From positions 620,001 to 684,000 of the forward strand of contig NC_007511.1 of NCBI RefSeq assembly GCF_000012945.1: a DNA stretch of 64,000 nt, written 5' to 3'. The notes beneath the pieces are model-generated. The model had not been told where the DNA came from. It saw only the letters and a program-made list of their open reading frames with translations, and did no database searches. The number at the start of each line of letters is the position of its first letter. The stretch's first letter is position 1. Shown piece by piece: positions 38,337 through 44,081 of the stretch. This DNA comes from Burkholderia lata. GTDB lineage: Bacteria > Pseudomonadota > Gammaproteobacteria > Burkholderiales > Burkholderiaceae. Made by a program: the position numbers and the translations under genes.

Positions 38337-39872
38337 ATGACGAACCCGACACCCAACATCCTGATCCTGATGGCCGACCAGCTCACGCCGTTCGCGCTGC
38401 CGGCCTATGGCAATCGCGTCGCGCGCACGCCGACGCTGGACCGTCTCGCCGCGCAAGGCGTCGTATTCGACGCCGCATACTGCGCGAGCCCGCTGTGCGC
38501 GCCGTCGCGTTTCTCGCTGCTGACCGGCAAGCTGCCGTCGGGGATCGGCGCCTACGATAACGCCGCCGAATTGCCGGCGCAAACATTGACGTTCGCACAC
38601 TACCTGCGCGCGGGCGGCTACCGGACGATGCTGTCCGGCAAGATGCATTTCTGCGGGCCCGACCAGTTGCACGGCTTCGAGGAGCGGCTGACGACCGACA
38701 TCTATCCGGCCGATTTCGGCTGGGTGCCCGACTGGGACAGCCCGACCGAGCGGCCGAGCTGGTATCACAACATGAGTTCGGTGCTGGAGGCCGGCCCGTG
38801 CGTGCGCACGAACCAGCTCGACTTCGACGACGAAGTCACGTTTGCCGCGAAGCAGAAGCTGTACGACGTCGCGCGCGAGCGTGCGGCCGGGCACGATGCG
38901 CGGCCGTTCTGCATGGTCGTGTCGCTGACTCATCCGCACGACCCGTATGCGATCACGCGCGAATACTGGGATCAATACAGCGACGACGAGATCGACATGC
39001 CGGCCGTGCACCTCGATGCGGCGGAAAGCGACCCGCATTCGCAGCGGCTGCGCTTCGTCTGCGAAAACGACCGCACGCCGCCCACCGACGCGCAGATTCG
39101 CGCCGCGCGCCGTGCCTACTACGGTGCGACGTCCTACGTCGACGCGCAGTTCGGCAGCGTGCTGGGCGCGCTCGAACAGTGCGGATTCGCCGACGATACG
39201 ATCGTGATCGTCACGTCCGACCACGGCGACATGCTCGGGGAGCGCGGGCTCTGGTACAAGATGACGTTCTTCGAAGGCGGCTGCCGCGTGCCGCTGATCG
39301 TGCATGCGCCGGGCCGCTTCGATGCCGCGCGTGTGCGCGGGCCTGTGTCGCACGTCGACCTGCTGCCGACGCTCGTCGATCTCGCCGGCGCCGCACCGGC
39401 CGGCGGCTGGCCTGACCCGGTCGATGGCGCGAGTCTCGTGCCGCACCTGCACGGCACGCCGGCGCACGACGTCGCGCTCGGCGAATACCTTGCGGAAGGC
39501 GCAGTTGCACCGGTCGTGATGATCCGCCGCGGCGACTGGAAGTACGTCCATTGCCCGGCCGATCCCGACCAGCTCTACAACCTCTCCGACGACCCGCGCG
39601 AGCTCACGAACCTCGCCGACACGCCGGAAGCGGCCGACGTGCTCGCTACGTTCCGCGCGCAAGCCGCGCAGCGCTGGAACCTGCCCGAGCTGGACCGGCA
39701 GGTGCGCGCGAGCCAGCGGCGCCGGCGCTTCCATTACGCGGCGACGACGCAGGGCCGCATCCAGGCGTGGGACTGGCAGCCGTTCACCGACGCGAGCCAG
39801 CGCTACATGCGCAATCACATCGAACTCGACACGCTCGAGGCGATGGCGCGTTTTCCGCGCGTCGGGCGCTGA
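38337..39872 (+). CDS. betC: Choline-sulfatase
   Basis: BetC hydrolyses choline-O-sulfate to choline and sulfate. The 511-residue alkaline-phosphatase-superfamily sulfatase has the N-terminal metal site ILMADQLTPFAL, the formylglycine motif SPLCAPSRFSLLTGK with modifiable Cys54 (C-x-P-S-R), TSDHGDMLGERGLWYKM, and the choline-sulfatase C-terminal extension ending in HIELDTLEAMARFPR. No signal peptide is present, so it works in the cytoplasm. It is followed 45 bases later by a choline-binding protein gene. Confidence 0.95.
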   Translation: MTNPTPNILILMADQLTPFALPAYGNRVARTPTLDRLAAQGVVFDAAYCASPLCAPSRFSLLTGKLPSGIGAYDNAAELPAQTLTFAHYLRAGGYRTMLSGKMHFCGPDQLHGFEERLTTDIYPADFGWVPDWDSPTERPSWYHNMSSVLEAGPCVRTNQLDFDDEVTFAAKQKLYDVARERAAGHDARPFCMVVSLTHPHDPYAITREYWDQYSDDEIDMPAVHLDAAESDPHSQRLRFVCENDRTPPTDAQIRAARRAYYGATSYVDAQFGSVLGALEQCGFADDTIVIVTSDHGDMLGERGLWYKMTFFEGGCRVPLIVHAPGRFDAARVRGPVSHVDLLPTLVDLAGAAPAGGWPDPVDGASLVPHLHGTPAHDVALGEYLAEGAVAPVVMIRRGDWKYVHCPADPDQLYNLSDDPRELTNLADTPEAADVLATFRAQAAQRWNLPELDRQVRASQRRRRFHYAATTQGRIQAWDWQPFTDASQRYMRNHIELDTLEAMARFPRVGR

Positions 39873-39917
39873 GCGTCCCGCATCGCGATCAATGACGAAC
39901 GATGGAGGAAGCGGACG

Positions 39918-40883
39918 ATGGAACGGCAATGCAATGCAGCAATCCGGATCGGCGCGGCGCTTGCCGCGGCCGCGTGCCTGATGACGACGCAGGCCGCGCA
40001 CGCGGCCGACCCGCAGACGTGCGGCGACGTGAAGATGGCGGCGCCCGGCTGGACCGACATCGATGCGACGAACGCGATGGCGGGCGTCGTGCTGAAGGCG
40101 CTCGGCTACCGGCAGGACGTGGCGAACCTGTCGGTGCCGATCACGTACCAGGGGCTCAAGAAAGGGCAGGTCGACGTATTCCTCGGCAACTGGATGCCCG
40201 CACAGGCGCCGCTCGTGAAGCCGTTCGTCGACGAGAAATCGATCGACGTGCTGCACGCGAACCTGAGCGGTGCGAAATTCACGCTCGCGGTGCCCGATTA
40301 CGTGGCGGCTGCCGGCGTGCATACGTTCGCCGATCTCGCGCGCTATGCGGACCGCTTCGGCGGCAAGATCTACGGGATCGAGCCCGGCGCGCCCGCGAAC
40401 CAGAACATCAAGCGGCTGCTGTCCGACCATGCGCTCGGCCCGGCGAACTGGTCGCTGGTCGAATCGAGCGAGACGGGCATGCTCACGCAGGTCGAGCGTG
40501 CGGTACGCGACAAGCGCTGGATCGTCTTTCTGGCGTGGGAGCCGCATCTGATGAACACGAAGTTCCACCTGACCTACCTGTCGGGCGGCGATGCGTATTT
40601 CGGCCCGAACTACGGCGGCGCGACGGTCAACACGGTCACGCGCACCGGGTTCGCCGGCCAGTGCGCGAACCTTGCGCGGCTGTTCCGGCAGATGACGTTC
40701 TCCGTCGACGTCGAGAACCGGATGATCGCCGACATGCTCGACCACAAGACGTCACCCGCGCTCGCGGCGCAGCATGCGCTGAAGGCCGACCCGGCGCTGG
40801 TCGCCGGCTGGCTGGACGGCGTGACGACGGCAGCCGGCGCACCGGGCCTGCCGGCCGTGCGCGCCGCCCTCGACAGTCACTGA
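39918..40883 (+). CDS. choX: Choline-type ABC substrate-binding protein
   Basis: A 321-residue periplasmic protein with signal peptide (cleavage near AAHA) and an OpuAC domain: VKMAAPGWTDIDATNAM, YQGLKKGQVDVFLGNWMPAQ, VFLAWEPHLMNTKFHLTYL hold the aromatic residues that bind quaternary ammonium groups in ChoX proteins. It sits after betC in a likely operon, the order seen in choline-sulfate loci. No transporter permease or ATPase is adjacent, so it probably shares an ABC core encoded elsewhere. Choline or choline sulfate is the expected ligand. Confidence 0.88.
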   Translation: MERQCNAAIRIGAALAAAACLMTTQAAHAADPQTCGDVKMAAPGWTDIDATNAMAGVVLKALGYRQDVANLSVPITYQGLKKGQVDVFLGNWMPAQAPLVKPFVDEKSIDVLHANLSGAKFTLAVPDYVAAAGVHTFADLARYADRFGGKIYGIEPGAPANQNIKRLLSDHALGPANWSLVESSETGMLTQVERAVRDKRWIVFLAWEPHLMNTKFHLTYLSGGDAYFGPNYGGATVNTVTRTGFAGQCANLARLFRQMTFSVDVENRMIADMLDHKTSPALAAQHALKADPALVAGWLDGVTTAAGAPGLPAVRAALDSH

Positions 40884-41141: not shown

Positions 41142-42281
41142 ATGAAGCATACGAAAGTTGCCGTAGCCGCCGCGCTTGCATGCGCGGCCTGTGTACCTGC
41201 CATCGGGCATGCGCAGAGCAGTGTGACGCTGTACGGGATTCTCGACGCGGGCATCACGTACGTGAACAACACGGGCGGCTCGCACGTGGTCAAGTTCGAC
41301 GACGGCGTCGCGTACGGGAACCGTTTCGGCCTCAAGGGCACGGAAGATCTCGGTGGCGGCCTGAAGGCCGTGTTCACCCTGGAGAGCGGCTTCCGCCTCG
41401 GCACCGGGCAGCTCGGCTTCGGCGGCTCGGAGTTCGGCCGCCAGGCGTATGTCGGCCTGCAGAACGACTGGGGCACGCTGTCGTTCGGCAACCAGCTCGA
41501 CATCACGAACGAACTCGTGTCGATCTACAACATCTCCGCGTGGGGCAGCGGCTATGCGATCCATCAGGGCGACTTCGACCGCTTCAACGGCGACCGCCTG
41601 CCGAATTCGGTGAAGTTCCTGTCGAACGACCTGAGCGGCTTCAAGTTCGGCGCGATGTACTCGTTCGGCAACGTCGCGGGCAACTTCCATCGCAACAGCG
41701 CATGGAGCGCGGGCGCGAGCTTCACGAAGGGCGACTTCTCGATCGGCGCCGCGTACACGCGCCTGAACAACCCGAACGGCATCTATGCATTCGACCCGTA
41801 CGCGATGATCGGCACGCACACGTTCCTTGGCCAGCAGACCGTCACCGTCGATCCGGCGACCGGCGCACGCACCGACCTGTTTGCGAACACGCCGATGGAC
41901 GTCGACAGCCAGGGCACGTTCGGCATCGGCACGAGCTACACGATCGGCAAGCTGACGCTCGACGGCAACTTCTCGTACACGACGATCAAGGGCTTCGGCC
42001 AGTCGTCGCACATGCAGGTCTACGAAGGCGGCGGCTCGTACCAGTTCACGCCGGCGTTGAGCCTGATCGCCGGCTACCAGCACACGCGCTTCGAAGGCCA
42101 CCACTGGAACCAGGGCACGGCGGGCCTGCATTACATGCTGTCGAAGCGCACGGACGTGTACCTCTCCGGCGATTACCTGCGTGCGTCGCAAGGCGTCGAT
42201 GCGGTGATCGGCTACAGCTTCACGCCGTCGACGACGCAGACGCAGGCCGACGTGCGGATCGGGATGCGGCATTCGTTCTGA
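41142..42281 (+). CDS. Burkholderia-type trimeric outer membrane porin
   Basis: A 379-residue 16-strand beta-barrel porin of the OmpC/Gram-negative porin family. A signal peptide (KVAVAAALACAACVPAIGHA) is followed by the hallmark QSSVTLYGILDAGITYVNN, then RFGLKGTEDLGGGLKAVFTLESGF and GRQAYVGLQNDWGTLSFGNQ. It ends in ...VRIGMRHSF with the terminal Phe needed for barrel assembly. Burkholderia genomes carry dozens of such porins; location behind betC and choX suggests a role in uptake of betaine-pathway compounds. A strong terminator follows. Confidence 0.93.
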   Translation: MKHTKVAVAAALACAACVPAIGHAQSSVTLYGILDAGITYVNNTGGSHVVKFDDGVAYGNRFGLKGTEDLGGGLKAVFTLESGFRLGTGQLGFGGSEFGRQAYVGLQNDWGTLSFGNQLDITNELVSIYNISAWGSGYAIHQGDFDRFNGDRLPNSVKFLSNDLSGFKFGAMYSFGNVAGNFHRNSAWSAGASFTKGDFSIGAAYTRLNNPNGIYAFDPYAMIGTHTFLGQQTVTVDPATGARTDLFANTPMDVDSQGTFGIGTSYTIGKLTLDGNFSYTTIKGFGQSSHMQVYEGGGSYQFTPALSLIAGYQHTRFEGHHWNQGTAGLHYMLSKRTDVYLSGDYLRASQGVDAVIGYSFTPSTTQTQADVRIGMRHSF

Positions 42282-42329
42282 GCAGTGTTGTGTGGGGTAG
42301 TGACGTCTTCAGCGAGCGGTCTCTCTTTG

Positions 42330-42357
42330 GCGCGAACCACGGTTCGCGCTTTTTTTT
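42330..42357 (+). terminator. Rho-independent terminator of the porin gene
   Basis: Perfect 8-base-pair stem GCGCGAAC/GTTCGCGC with loop CACG followed by eight T residues, 49 bases after the porin stop. Confidence 0.9.
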
Positions 42358-42451
42358 GACGGGTGTGAGCGGGCATGCGGTCCGTCCGGTTCAATGCCGG
42401 TCGCCCGGCTGCCACCCCGGGATCGTCACCGGGAATGGTTGCTCGACGGTA

Positions 42452-42481
42452 TTGACCATTGCCGTCTATAGGCGCTAGCAT
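42452..42481 (+). promoter_or_regulatory. Candidate promoter of the cysS leader
   Basis: TTGACC (42452-42457), an 18-base spacer and TAGCAT (42476-42481). The predicted start of transcription, seven or eight bases further at about 42488-42489, coincides with the ATG of the leader peptide, implying a leaderless message. The -10 matches the consensus at four of six positions. Confidence 0.45.
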
Positions 42482-42488
42482 CGTCCGC

Positions 42489-42566
42489 ATGCTGAATCTC
42501 GCCATTTCCCCCTCCTCGTTGATCCGCGCATGTTGTCAGAACATGCCTGGGGGAAGTTGCGTCTAG
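42489..42566 (+). CDS. Cysteine-containing leader peptide of cysS (25 residues)
   Basis: A short ORF of 25 codons ending in TAG. It contains two adjacent cysteine codons (TGT TGT, 42531-42536) and a third (TGC, 42558-42560), three of the last eleven residues. Those first two lie inside a hairpin (GCATGTT 42528-42534 with AACATGC 42540-42546), and TTCCCCC (42506-42512) can pair with GGGGGAA (42549-42555) around it. A rho-independent terminator stands between it and cysS. This is the layout of an amino-acid attenuator, and cysteine is the amino acid cysS uses. No ribosome site precedes the ATG, which fits a leaderless transcript from the promoter just upstream. The regulation itself is inferred. 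Confidence 0.6.
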   Translation: MLNLAISPSSLIRACCQNMPGGSCV

Positions 42567-42599
42567 CGAACTCGCTAAACATTCAAGCAATCGCCTTCC

Positions 42600-42632
42600 G
42601 GCCGCCTGTGATGCAAAACAGGCGGCCTTTTT
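42600..42632 (+). terminator. Attenuator terminator between leader peptide and cysS
   Basis: Perfect 10-base-pair stem GGCCGCCTGT/ACAGGCGGCC, 8-base loop, then TTTTTG and further T residues. It begins 33 bases after the leader peptide stop and ends 36 bases before the cysS ATG. A competing pairing is possible: GGAAG (42552-42556) with CTTCC (42595-42599), supported by GCG with CGC next to it, directly abutting the 5' arm of the terminator. Confidence 0.8.
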
Positions 42633-42668
42633 GTTTTTGGGCCGACACTTTCGGGACGGAGAAACTCG

Positions 42669-44081
42669 ATGCCGCTTGCGCTGTATGACACCTGGTCGCG
42701 TACCGTACGCCCCTTCACGCCAATCCGGGCCGGGCAGGTCGGCATGTATGGCTGCGGCCCCACGGTCTACGACGACGCCCACATCGGCAACCTGAGGACC
42801 TACGTGTTCGAGGATCTCCTGCGCCGCGTACTGGAGCGCAACGGCTACGCGGTCCGGCACGTCGTCAACATCACCGACGTCGGCCACCTGACGTCGGATG
42901 CGGACGAAGGCGAAGACAAGATGGAGAAGGGTAGCCGTCGGACCGGCGAATCGGCATGGGCCATCGCCCGGCGCTACACCGAGGCGTTCGTCCGGGACTG
43001 GCACGCGCTCAACTTGCTCGAGCCGACGATCTGGTGCCGCGCCACCGATCACATCGCCGAGCAGATCGCGTTCATCGAGACGCTCGACCGGGCCGGCTAC
43101 GTCTATCGGACGGACGACGGCCTCTACTTCGACACCAGTCGGCAGGACGACTACGGTTACCTCGCACGGCTGGACCGCGCGGGGTTGCAGGCAGGCAAGC
43201 GGGTGGCGCTGGGCGGGAAGCGGAGCATCACGGATTTTGCGCTGTGGAAGTTCAGCCCGGCCGACGTCCAGCGGCAAATGGAATGGGACAGCCCGTGGGG
43301 TCGCGGCTTTCCGGGCTGGCATATCGAATGCTCGGCGATGTCGGCGAAGTATCTCGGGACGCTGTTCGATATCCATTGCGGCGGCGAGGATCATATCGCC
43401 GTGCATCACAGCAACGAGATCGCGCAGACGCGGGCGGCCCACGGCACGCAGCTCGCGAATTACTGGATGCACGGGCACTTCCTGACGCTCGACGTCCACA
43501 CGAAGATGTCGAAGTCGAGCGGCGACTTCGTCCGTCTGCAGACCTTGCAGCGCCGCGGTGTCGATCCGCTCGCGTACCGCTACCTGTGCCTGACGGCCCA
43601 TTACCGCAGCAAGCTGCATTTCACGTGGGAGTCGCTCGATGCGGCGCAAACCGCGCTGAATCGGCTTCGGCACCTCTATATCGGCTGGCCGGACGGCGGG
43701 CGCGTCGATGCGGATTTCGCCGCGCGATTCGATGCCGAAGTGAACGAGGACCTGAATCTGCCGAGGGCGCTTGCGGTGCTGTGGGATCTGGTCAGGAGCA
43801 ATCTGCCGCCCGCCACCCTGAAAGCGACCGTGGACAGCTTCGACATGGTGCTGGGACTCGGTTTGCGCGAATGGCGGCCGGTTGCGGTCGACGTTCCGGA
43901 GCACGTCCGTGCGTTGCTCGGTGAGCGAGCGCGTGCGAGGGCGGAGAAGGACTGGGCGCAAGCGGACCGGATCCGGGAAGCGTTGAGCGCCGAAGGCTGG
44001 AGAGTCGAGGACACGCCGGAAGGTCAACGTCTGTTCGGCATGGCAATGGGCGCAAGCGAGCCTGACGTCCCGCCGCAGTGA
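42669..44081 (+). CDS. cysS: Cysteinyl-tRNA synthetase (second type)
   Basis: Charges tRNA-Cys with cysteine. The 470-residue class I synthetase has zinc ligands Cys29, Cys221, His246 and Glu250, the ATP motif at 38-41 as HIGN (most proteobacterial enzymes have HIGH), GWHIECSAMS, CGGEDHIAVHHSNE, and KMSKS at 279-283. Length is normal. The HIGN form and overall wording differ from the usual Burkholderia housekeeping type, so this may be an additional, acquired copy; that needs a genome check. It is preceded by a leader peptide and terminator that look like a cysteine attenuator, and followed by a GC-rich hairpin. Confidence 0.93.
   Translation: MPLALYDTWSRTVRPFTPIRAGQVGMYGCGPTVYDDAHIGNLRTYVFEDLLRRVLERNGYAVRHVVNITDVGHLTSDADEGEDKMEKGSRRTGESAWAIARRYTEAFVRDWHALNLLEPTIWCRATDHIAEQIAFIETLDRAGYVYRTDDGLYFDTSRQDDYGYLARLDRAGLQAGKRVALGGKRSITDFALWKFSPADVQRQMEWDSPWGRGFPGWHIECSAMSAKYLGTLFDIHCGGEDHIAVHHSNEIAQTRAAHGTQLANYWMHGHFLTLDVHTKMSKSSGDFVRLQTLQRRGVDPLAYRYLCLTAHYRSKLHFTWESLDAAQTALNRLRHLYIGWPDGGRVDADFAARFDAEVNEDLNLPRALAVLWDLVRSNLPPATLKATVDSFDMVLGLGLREWRPVAVDVPEHVRALLGERARARAEKDWAQADRIREALSAEGWRVEDTPEGQRLFGMAMGASEPDVPPQ

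Follow-up and report, generated by a model that had tools for sequence, protein, structure and literature searches.

The region in front of the second cysteinyl-tRNA synthetase gene (cysS2) of Burkholderia lata very probably encodes a ribosome-mediated transcription attenuator, one that responds to the supply of charged tRNA-Cys and governs a back-up enzyme, cysteinyl-tRNA synthetase (CysRS). The window, that is, the whole stretch of 64,000 nucleotides analysed here, is C3:620001-684000 of a genome with 8,676,277 bases in three contigs. A cysteine attenuator had already been proposed at this place by the sequence-only reading. Conservation among relatives supports that proposal, with three amendments: the competing pairing lies in another register, the gene is a second cysS, and the idea itself is already published. 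The comparative case is for a probably leaderless attenuator with a fixed start-codon distance, a near-unconstrained peptide and an RNA switch, found in several genera. Such an attenuator would explain how a redundant second CysRS could stay silent until required.

Organization of the cysS2 region

The features of the locus are listed below in window positions.

41142-42281, porin gene, upstream of the leader
42452..42457, + strand, -35 hexamer TTGACC (TTGACC in 56 of the 59 aligned leaders)
42476..42481, + strand, -10 hexamer TAGCAT (TAGCAT in 34 of 59 leaders, other TANNAT in the remaining ones)
42489..42566, + strand, leader ORF of 25 codons, MLNLAISPSSLIRACCQNMPGGSCV, with TAG stop (first TGYTGY in frame with the ATG at +7 in 58 of 58)
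42531..42536, + strand, tandem Cys codons TGT TGT, the proposed sensor (codons 15-16 of the leader ORF)
42528..42546, + strand, P1 hairpin around the Cys codons, 42528-42534/42540-42546 (85.3% of cells paired)
42502..42559, + strand, P0 helix enclosing P1, a proposed anti-antiterminator, 42502-42512/42549-42559 (72.9% of cells paired)
42545..42553, + strand, antiterminator 5' strand GCC.GGGGG, predicted to pair with 42594-42602
42594..42602, + strand, antiterminator 3' strand, whose final three bases GGC begin the terminator stem
42600..42632, + strand, intrinsic terminator, stem 42600-42609/42618-42627 and T run (88.3% of cells paired)
42669..44081, + strand, cysS2, second cysteinyl-tRNA synthetase of 470 aa (TIGR00435, 398.6 bits, cut-off 340; PF01406)

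Most of these elements had been read from the letters beforehand and were found where they had been placed. They include the promoter pair TTGACC-18-TAGCAT with 7 bases before the leader ATG, the 25-codon ORF with TGT TGT and a late third Cys codon (TGC, 42558-42560), the Cys-codon hairpin with its enclosing pairs 42506-42512/42549-42555, and the perfect 10-bp terminator. The window promoter therefore runs as TTGACC, 18-base spacer, TAGCAT, 7 bases and ATG. Among the 59 leaders the spacer is 18 bases long in 38, 17 in 20 and 19 in one. This promoter pattern with an ATG at +7 occurs at four places in the 8.68-Mb genome, the cysS2 leader included, and the frames at the other three places contain no tandem Cys codons. 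At G000:C3:150936-150974 on the - strand (L170), such a promoter-like pattern with an ATG 7 nt past the -10 hexamer opens a 198-codon frame, possibly a leaderless gene.

The leader RNA folds at -58.5 kcal/mol, compared with -38.9 +/- 3.5 for shuffled sequences (z -5.56), and none of 200 shuffles matched it in fold stability. No Rfam family, T-box included, matched anywhere in the window at gathering score. At E up to 5 within 42200-42800, the one weak overlapping match was RF00519 suhB with 16.1 bits (gathering 41) at 42552-42642.

The cysS2 product carries the motifs HIGN at 38 and KMSKS at 279. One other CysRS gene was detected in the genome at E <= 0.001; it lies on another contig and is 39% identical to the cysS2 product. 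Among 15 genomes checked, which were those reached through loci, 13 had a second CysRS match, and two (L073 Undibacterium and L116, a MAG) had this CysRS alone. We infer that cysS2 encodes a back-up enzyme. The next same-strand ORF of at least 120 aa begins 18 to 1139 bases after cysS2 (mechanical scan of 15 loci), which suggests that cysS2 is mostly a single-gene unit.

Upstream of the leader, a strong hairpin with a T run past the porin gene was noted by inspection (42330-42357) and is most likely the porin terminator. The stretch 42318-42357 gave a sub-threshold match to RF02278, Betaproteobacteria toxic small RNA (23.7 bits, gathering 50). A choline-sulfatase gene and then a choline ABC transporter binding protein gene occupy 38337-40883.

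Comparative screen of cysS upstream regions

In a family sample of 398 genomes, cysS2 was found at E <= 1e-150 in 43, of which 30 became loci; 11 further upstream stretches were added to these. A scan of named genomes contributed the best 80 of at least 592 stretches, and among these a recognisable leader was present in Burkholderia, Paraburkholderia, Trinickia, Achromobacter, Variovorax, Chromobacterium, Vogesella, Paludibacterium, Amantichitinum and Pseudogulbenkiania. Altogether 118 distinct cysS upstream regions were screened, one of them belonging to the window genome's other cysS.

The first screen looked for nothing but the promoter: TTGAC, a spacer of 17-18 bases and TANNNT, suitably distant. 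Such a promoter was found in 61 of the 118 regions; the other 57, mostly from more distant taxa, had none. TGYTGY was present in all 61 promoter-bearing regions, and an ATG stood exactly 7 nt past the -10 hexamer in 58 of them. The three regions deviating from this distance were L038, in which the start codon is lost, and L091 and L116 (5 and 6 nt). In a second screen, an ORF containing CC had to lie at 5-9 nt, preferably 7, from the -10 hexamer; this gave 61, of which 59 were at 7. The preference for 7 is a bias of this second screen, from which the promoter-only screen is free. The 59 leaders at 7 form alignment A1, on which the helix statistics below are based; it includes L014 (G030), located ahead of an apparently interrupted cysS2.

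The conservation check proposed by the sequence-only reading came out in its favour: orthologues from several genera share the start codon, the reading frame, the adjacent Cys codons, the hairpin and the terminator. These counts also bear on another explanation of the locus, in which a plain terminator ends an upstream transcript, the ORF is there by chance and cysS2 has its promoter farther downstream. The terminator itself fits such an arrangement and nothing else does. Only 36 bases separate the T run from cysS2, and the promoter comes with tandem Cys codons in 61 distinct regions, 58 of them with the ATG at +7 in frame, so we regard this explanation as hardly credible.

Leader ORF and its start position

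In sigma-70 promoters a distance of 7 from the -10 hexamer sets the transcription start at or beside the A of such an ATG. The 7 bases between hexamer and ATG comprise 35 distinct sequences among the 59 leaders. Since these bases vary and the promoter spacer itself is 17, 18 or once 19, the constant distance is not mere shared ancestry of bases. The leader ORF therefore probably starts at +1 and is leaderless, as judged from the ATG being held 7 nt from the -10 hexamer. With transcription starting at the ATG, a Shine-Dalgarno sequence would be impossible.

The run of Cys codons has two members in 46 leaders, three in eleven and four in two, and the first TGYTGY is preceded by 14 codons in 50 of 58. 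A further Cys codon follows the tandem run in 46 of the 59, so that the third Cys codon of the window leader is not essential. The peptide before the Cys codons is free: in 62 close pairs of 49 sequences, substitutions were spread evenly over codon positions (86, 99 and 96 at positions 1, 2 and 3). A search of NCBIfam with four leader peptides gave no match.

The tail of the peptide appears conserved as PGGSCV or PRGACV, and this would be expected if the leader were an arrest peptide or an antibiotic sensor, with the stall caused by the nascent peptide or a drug instead of by uncharged tRNA-Cys. The codons of the tail argue otherwise. Of the two Gly codons in the 26 PGG leaders, one is GGG in all 26 and the other GGA in 25, and the 17 PRG leaders use AGG in all 17 and GGA in 16. 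We attribute the conservation to the RNA, because third bases are frozen where protein selection would free them. In two leaders, L036 and L134, the frame is shifted past the Cys codons and the tail is read in another frame (RTCRRESRV and RMPAMERARVA), so that the peptide tail is altered and the G-rich RNA segment retained. As the RNA accounts for the tail, and what the 59 leaders share as residues is their start and their Cys run, ahead of a Cys-charging enzyme, stalling by nascent peptide or drug is very improbable. The leaders preserve their start, reading frame and Cys run, together with the RNA.

Terminator, P1 and P0 helices

Covarying stems had been put forward as a sign of a genuine attenuator. 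Covariation was evident for the terminator on all measures and for P1 and P0 on some, and was not seen for the antiterminator. Shuffle counts are here taken as support and not as proof, because related sequences can beat shuffles without structure.

The terminator stem is a perfect 10 bp, and its T run extends to 42632, 36 bases ahead of the cysS ATG at 42669. Both sides were changed in 25 cells, with a G-C to A-U exchange in 22 of the 59 leaders, and none of 500 shuffles reached any of the five measures. The distance from the leader stop to the terminator is 20 to 40 bases, and its three phases are represented 27, 26 and 6 times.

In P1, 24 cells were changed on both sides and the covariation score was reached by 0 of 500 shuffles; the number of covarying pairs was reached by 117 and the pair types by 136. 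The P1 signal comes almost wholly from one pair, in which the first Cys codon takes part with its third base (28 U-A, 22 C-G). P0 is present in the MFE fold of the window leader, where the helix is longer and bulged and contains the pairs 42506-42512/42549-42555. It had 35 cells changed on both sides. Its covariation score was reached by one of 500 shuffles and its percentage paired by three; for covarying pairs and pair types the counts were 300 and 116. At the level of comparative sequence, the promoter spacing, the frame, the Cys codons and the terminator may be considered established, and P1 and P0 with less force.

Predicted antiterminator and stall model

Folding predicted an antiterminator that joins 42549-42553 with 42594-42598 and 42545-42547 with 42600-42602, the latter pairs drawing on the three bases with which the terminator stem begins. 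This eight-pair register has 86.0% of its cells paired, with all eight pairs in 21 of the 59 leaders. A ten-pair register had 77.3% of cells paired, compared with 34.5-57.8% when slid. Covariation was absent from the antiterminator in the 59 leaders: 4 cells were changed on both sides and the score was reached by 478 of 500 shuffles.

The competing pairing named by the sequence-only reading, 42552-42556 with 42595-42599, does exist and adjoins the terminator, but is poorly kept, with all five pairs in only 9 of 59 leaders. That register was rejected, having 60.8% of cells paired against 86.0% and no invasion of the stem.

Stalling was modelled by folding partial transcripts in which the ribosome edge lay 13 nt beyond the point where the A-site codon begins, an assumed toeprint distance. 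The antiterminator was predicted at P>0.5 in 56 of 59 leaders when the ribosome occupied the first Cys codon, compared with 18 of 59 when it sat on the second and 7 of 59 without a ribosome. L014, L039 and L072 were the leaders without a predicted antiterminator at P>0.5 in the first-codon stall. The model thus depends on the first Cys codon and on the assumed 13-nt edge, as the 18 of 59 for a second-codon stall indicate.

In the first-codon stall the mean antiterminator probability was 0.94, compared with 0.50 when the spacer from stop to terminator was shuffled, and the real value exceeded the shuffled one in 57 of the 59 leaders. The shuffled-spacer mean was above 0.5 in 26 of 59, and shuffled spacers partly yield the antiterminator because GCC and GGC lie outside the shuffled stretch. 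Without a ribosome, the G-rich segment was paired to early codons with a mean probability of 0.54, above 0.4 in 45 of 59 leaders. The antiterminator is thus predicted to be mutually exclusive with the terminator and to be freed by stalling.

Specificity and distribution of the leader

The search with a covariance model of the leader (R1) covered 299 genomes from the family, 274 from the class and 398 from the phylum. The family genomes gave 23 matches at 93 bits or more, the next being at 38.9 bits and below. By coordinates, 22 of the 23 strong matches lie upstream of cysS2 places, and the 23rd (G096) lies ahead of a partial cysS2. In the class and phylum genomes, searched with stricter filters, no strong match was found besides the window's own. 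Weak relatives may escape R1, as scoring was limited to 7 to 11 candidates in each genome and the filters were stricter. From the 72 weak places listed in the family search, 10 were inspected, and these resemble gene ends with ordinary terminators. In the genomes searched, strong matches to the leader therefore appear confined to cysS2 upstream regions.

The unit from promoter to terminator is complete and about 144 nt long, and could as such yield a terminated small RNA or small mRNA in its own right, acting in trans through its RNA or its peptide, control of cysS2 being secondary. For the S. meliloti trpL attenuator, trans action of the attenuator product has been published (PMC7298713, in the part of the paper covered here). 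We consider this unlikely for the present leader: in the genomes searched, strong matches stand directly before cysS2 alone, the peptide before the Cys codons is unconserved, and its tail is frameshifted in two leaders. A cis-acting attenuator of cysS2 is preferred.

Several loci depart from the common arrangement. In G030 (C3:1872550-1875374), which is among the 22, cysS2 was matched over residues 164-461 only; by coordinates the distance from these residues to the leader and the beginning of the gene is more than 1 kb too long, and the gene seems to be interrupted. In G096 (L158, 1071-1948) the leader has its start, Cys codons and terminator while the cysS2 match ends at residue 234; this is a decaying back-up gene. 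The leader start codon is lost in G373 (L038/L172), where cysS2 reads open, and L136 (G112) has cysS2 and no recognisable leader.

A set of 29 cysS2 loci, assigned by record title to Betaproteobacteria or unassigned Proteobacteria, comprised 27 that failed the strict screen and two that passed it at a distance other than 7 nt. An ATG-started ORF with adjacent Cys codons was present in 13 of these 29, compared with 1.3 expected from shuffles, and in 0 of 27 loci of other taxa, with 0.7 expected. The 13 ORF-bearing loci include a CCCCCC run before the stop. Undibacterium has Cys-rich leader-like ORFs directly before cysS2 (L073:2850-2936, L123:2795-2920 and L075:2795-2920), ending in SVCCCCCC or CGCYCTYCCTCCRTCCF and a stop codon. 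These ORFs represent a different leader architecture for cysS2.

Proposed mechanism

Transcription would begin on the A of the leader ATG or on a neighbouring base, and the ORF would be translated from the bare 5' end. In the absence of a ribosome, the segment GCCTGGGGGAAG (42545-42556) would be sequestered by the pyrimidine-rich early codons, with P0 formed around P1, and the terminator would form. When Cys-tRNA is ample, the ribosome would reach the stop codon and mask the segment 42545-42556, again leading to the terminator. When Cys-tRNA is scarce, the ribosome would stall at the first Cys codon, disrupt P0 and P1 and release the segment. The released segment could then pair with CCTTC.GGC and capture terminator-stem bases, and the polymerase would continue into cysS2. 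Leaderless initiation, stalling and induction are in this scheme what we infer from the conserved elements.

Spread of cysS2 and its leader

Achromobacter insolitus has a CysRS2 with 80.8% identity to the window copy, compared with 62.2% between the housekeeping enzymes, a hint that the gene was transferred horizontally together with its leader. Variovorax shows the same direction more weakly (74.0% for CysRS2, 66.2% for the housekeeping enzyme). Two Chromobacterium and Vogesella give hardly any hint (66.3-67.6% and 61.7-62.7%, respectively), and B. puraquae is reversed (92.6% for CysRS2, 98.9% for the housekeeping enzyme). We might speculate, as a tentative view that we hold to be somewhat less probable than its opposite, that cysS2 and its leader form a self-contained emergency CysRS cassette of Betaproteobacteria that moves horizontally, with a leaderless sensor that turns it on whatever the cause of Cys-tRNA depletion. 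If so, the cassette would be silent while the housekeeping enzyme copes, and would be triggered by cysteine starvation or by an inhibitor of the housekeeping CysRS.

Comparison with known systems

Cysteine-responsive attenuation by leaderless polycysteine short ORFs is reportedly the subject, by its title, of mycobacterial work by Canestrari from 2020. Mycobacterial polycysteine ORFs are described as translation attenuation in the part of PMC13236596 covered here, and for candidate mycobacterial Cys leaders conserved terminator hairpins are not reported in the corresponding part of PMC1262725. As far as those parts go, the mycobacterial Cys leaders stand before cys operons; the window leader has an intrinsic terminator and precedes a CysRS gene.

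Short attenuated or processed 5' UTRs have been counted in B. cenocepacia, including two at genes for tRNA synthetases, which are named by locus tag (PMC5688073, in the part covered); the words cysS and cysteinyl do not occur in its main text. The main text of Sass 2015 (PMC4603805) does not name cysS either. In the main texts of the mostly non-subscription literature searched, we found no report of a cysS2 leader in Burkholderia.

Among the closest known systems is the uORFC-8-2 motif of Rhodobacterales, a cysS attenuator whose uORF has adjacent Cys codons (PMC8632094, as far as its text was covered). According to the same text it shares with the window leader the position upstream of cysS, an AUG uORF, Cys codons in the first stem, a terminator with U run and the mechanism proposed. 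Its tandem Cys codons are usually codons 14-15, compared with 15-16 here. Attenuation of cysS through tandem Cys codons has thus already been published for Rhodobacterales (PMC8632094, same part), so that not the idea but only its occurrence here is new. In that part, uORFC-8-2 is reported from Rhodobacterales (alphaproteobacteria) only, while the window leader is betaproteobacterial. The word leaderless is absent from the main text of PMC8632094. R1 had no strong match besides the window's own in the 398-genome phylum sample, so that no sequence kinship with uORFC-8-2 is shown.

In its start, the window leader resembles the S. meliloti trpL attenuator, which is leaderless with its ATG as the 5' end of the transcript (PMC7298713, in the part covered). 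Both are transcription attenuators whose leader ORF opens at the transcript 5' end, here probably so; the trpL leader senses Trp and precedes trpE(G), within the same part of that source. The features of the window leader's own are its probable leaderless start and its tie to a second CysRS.
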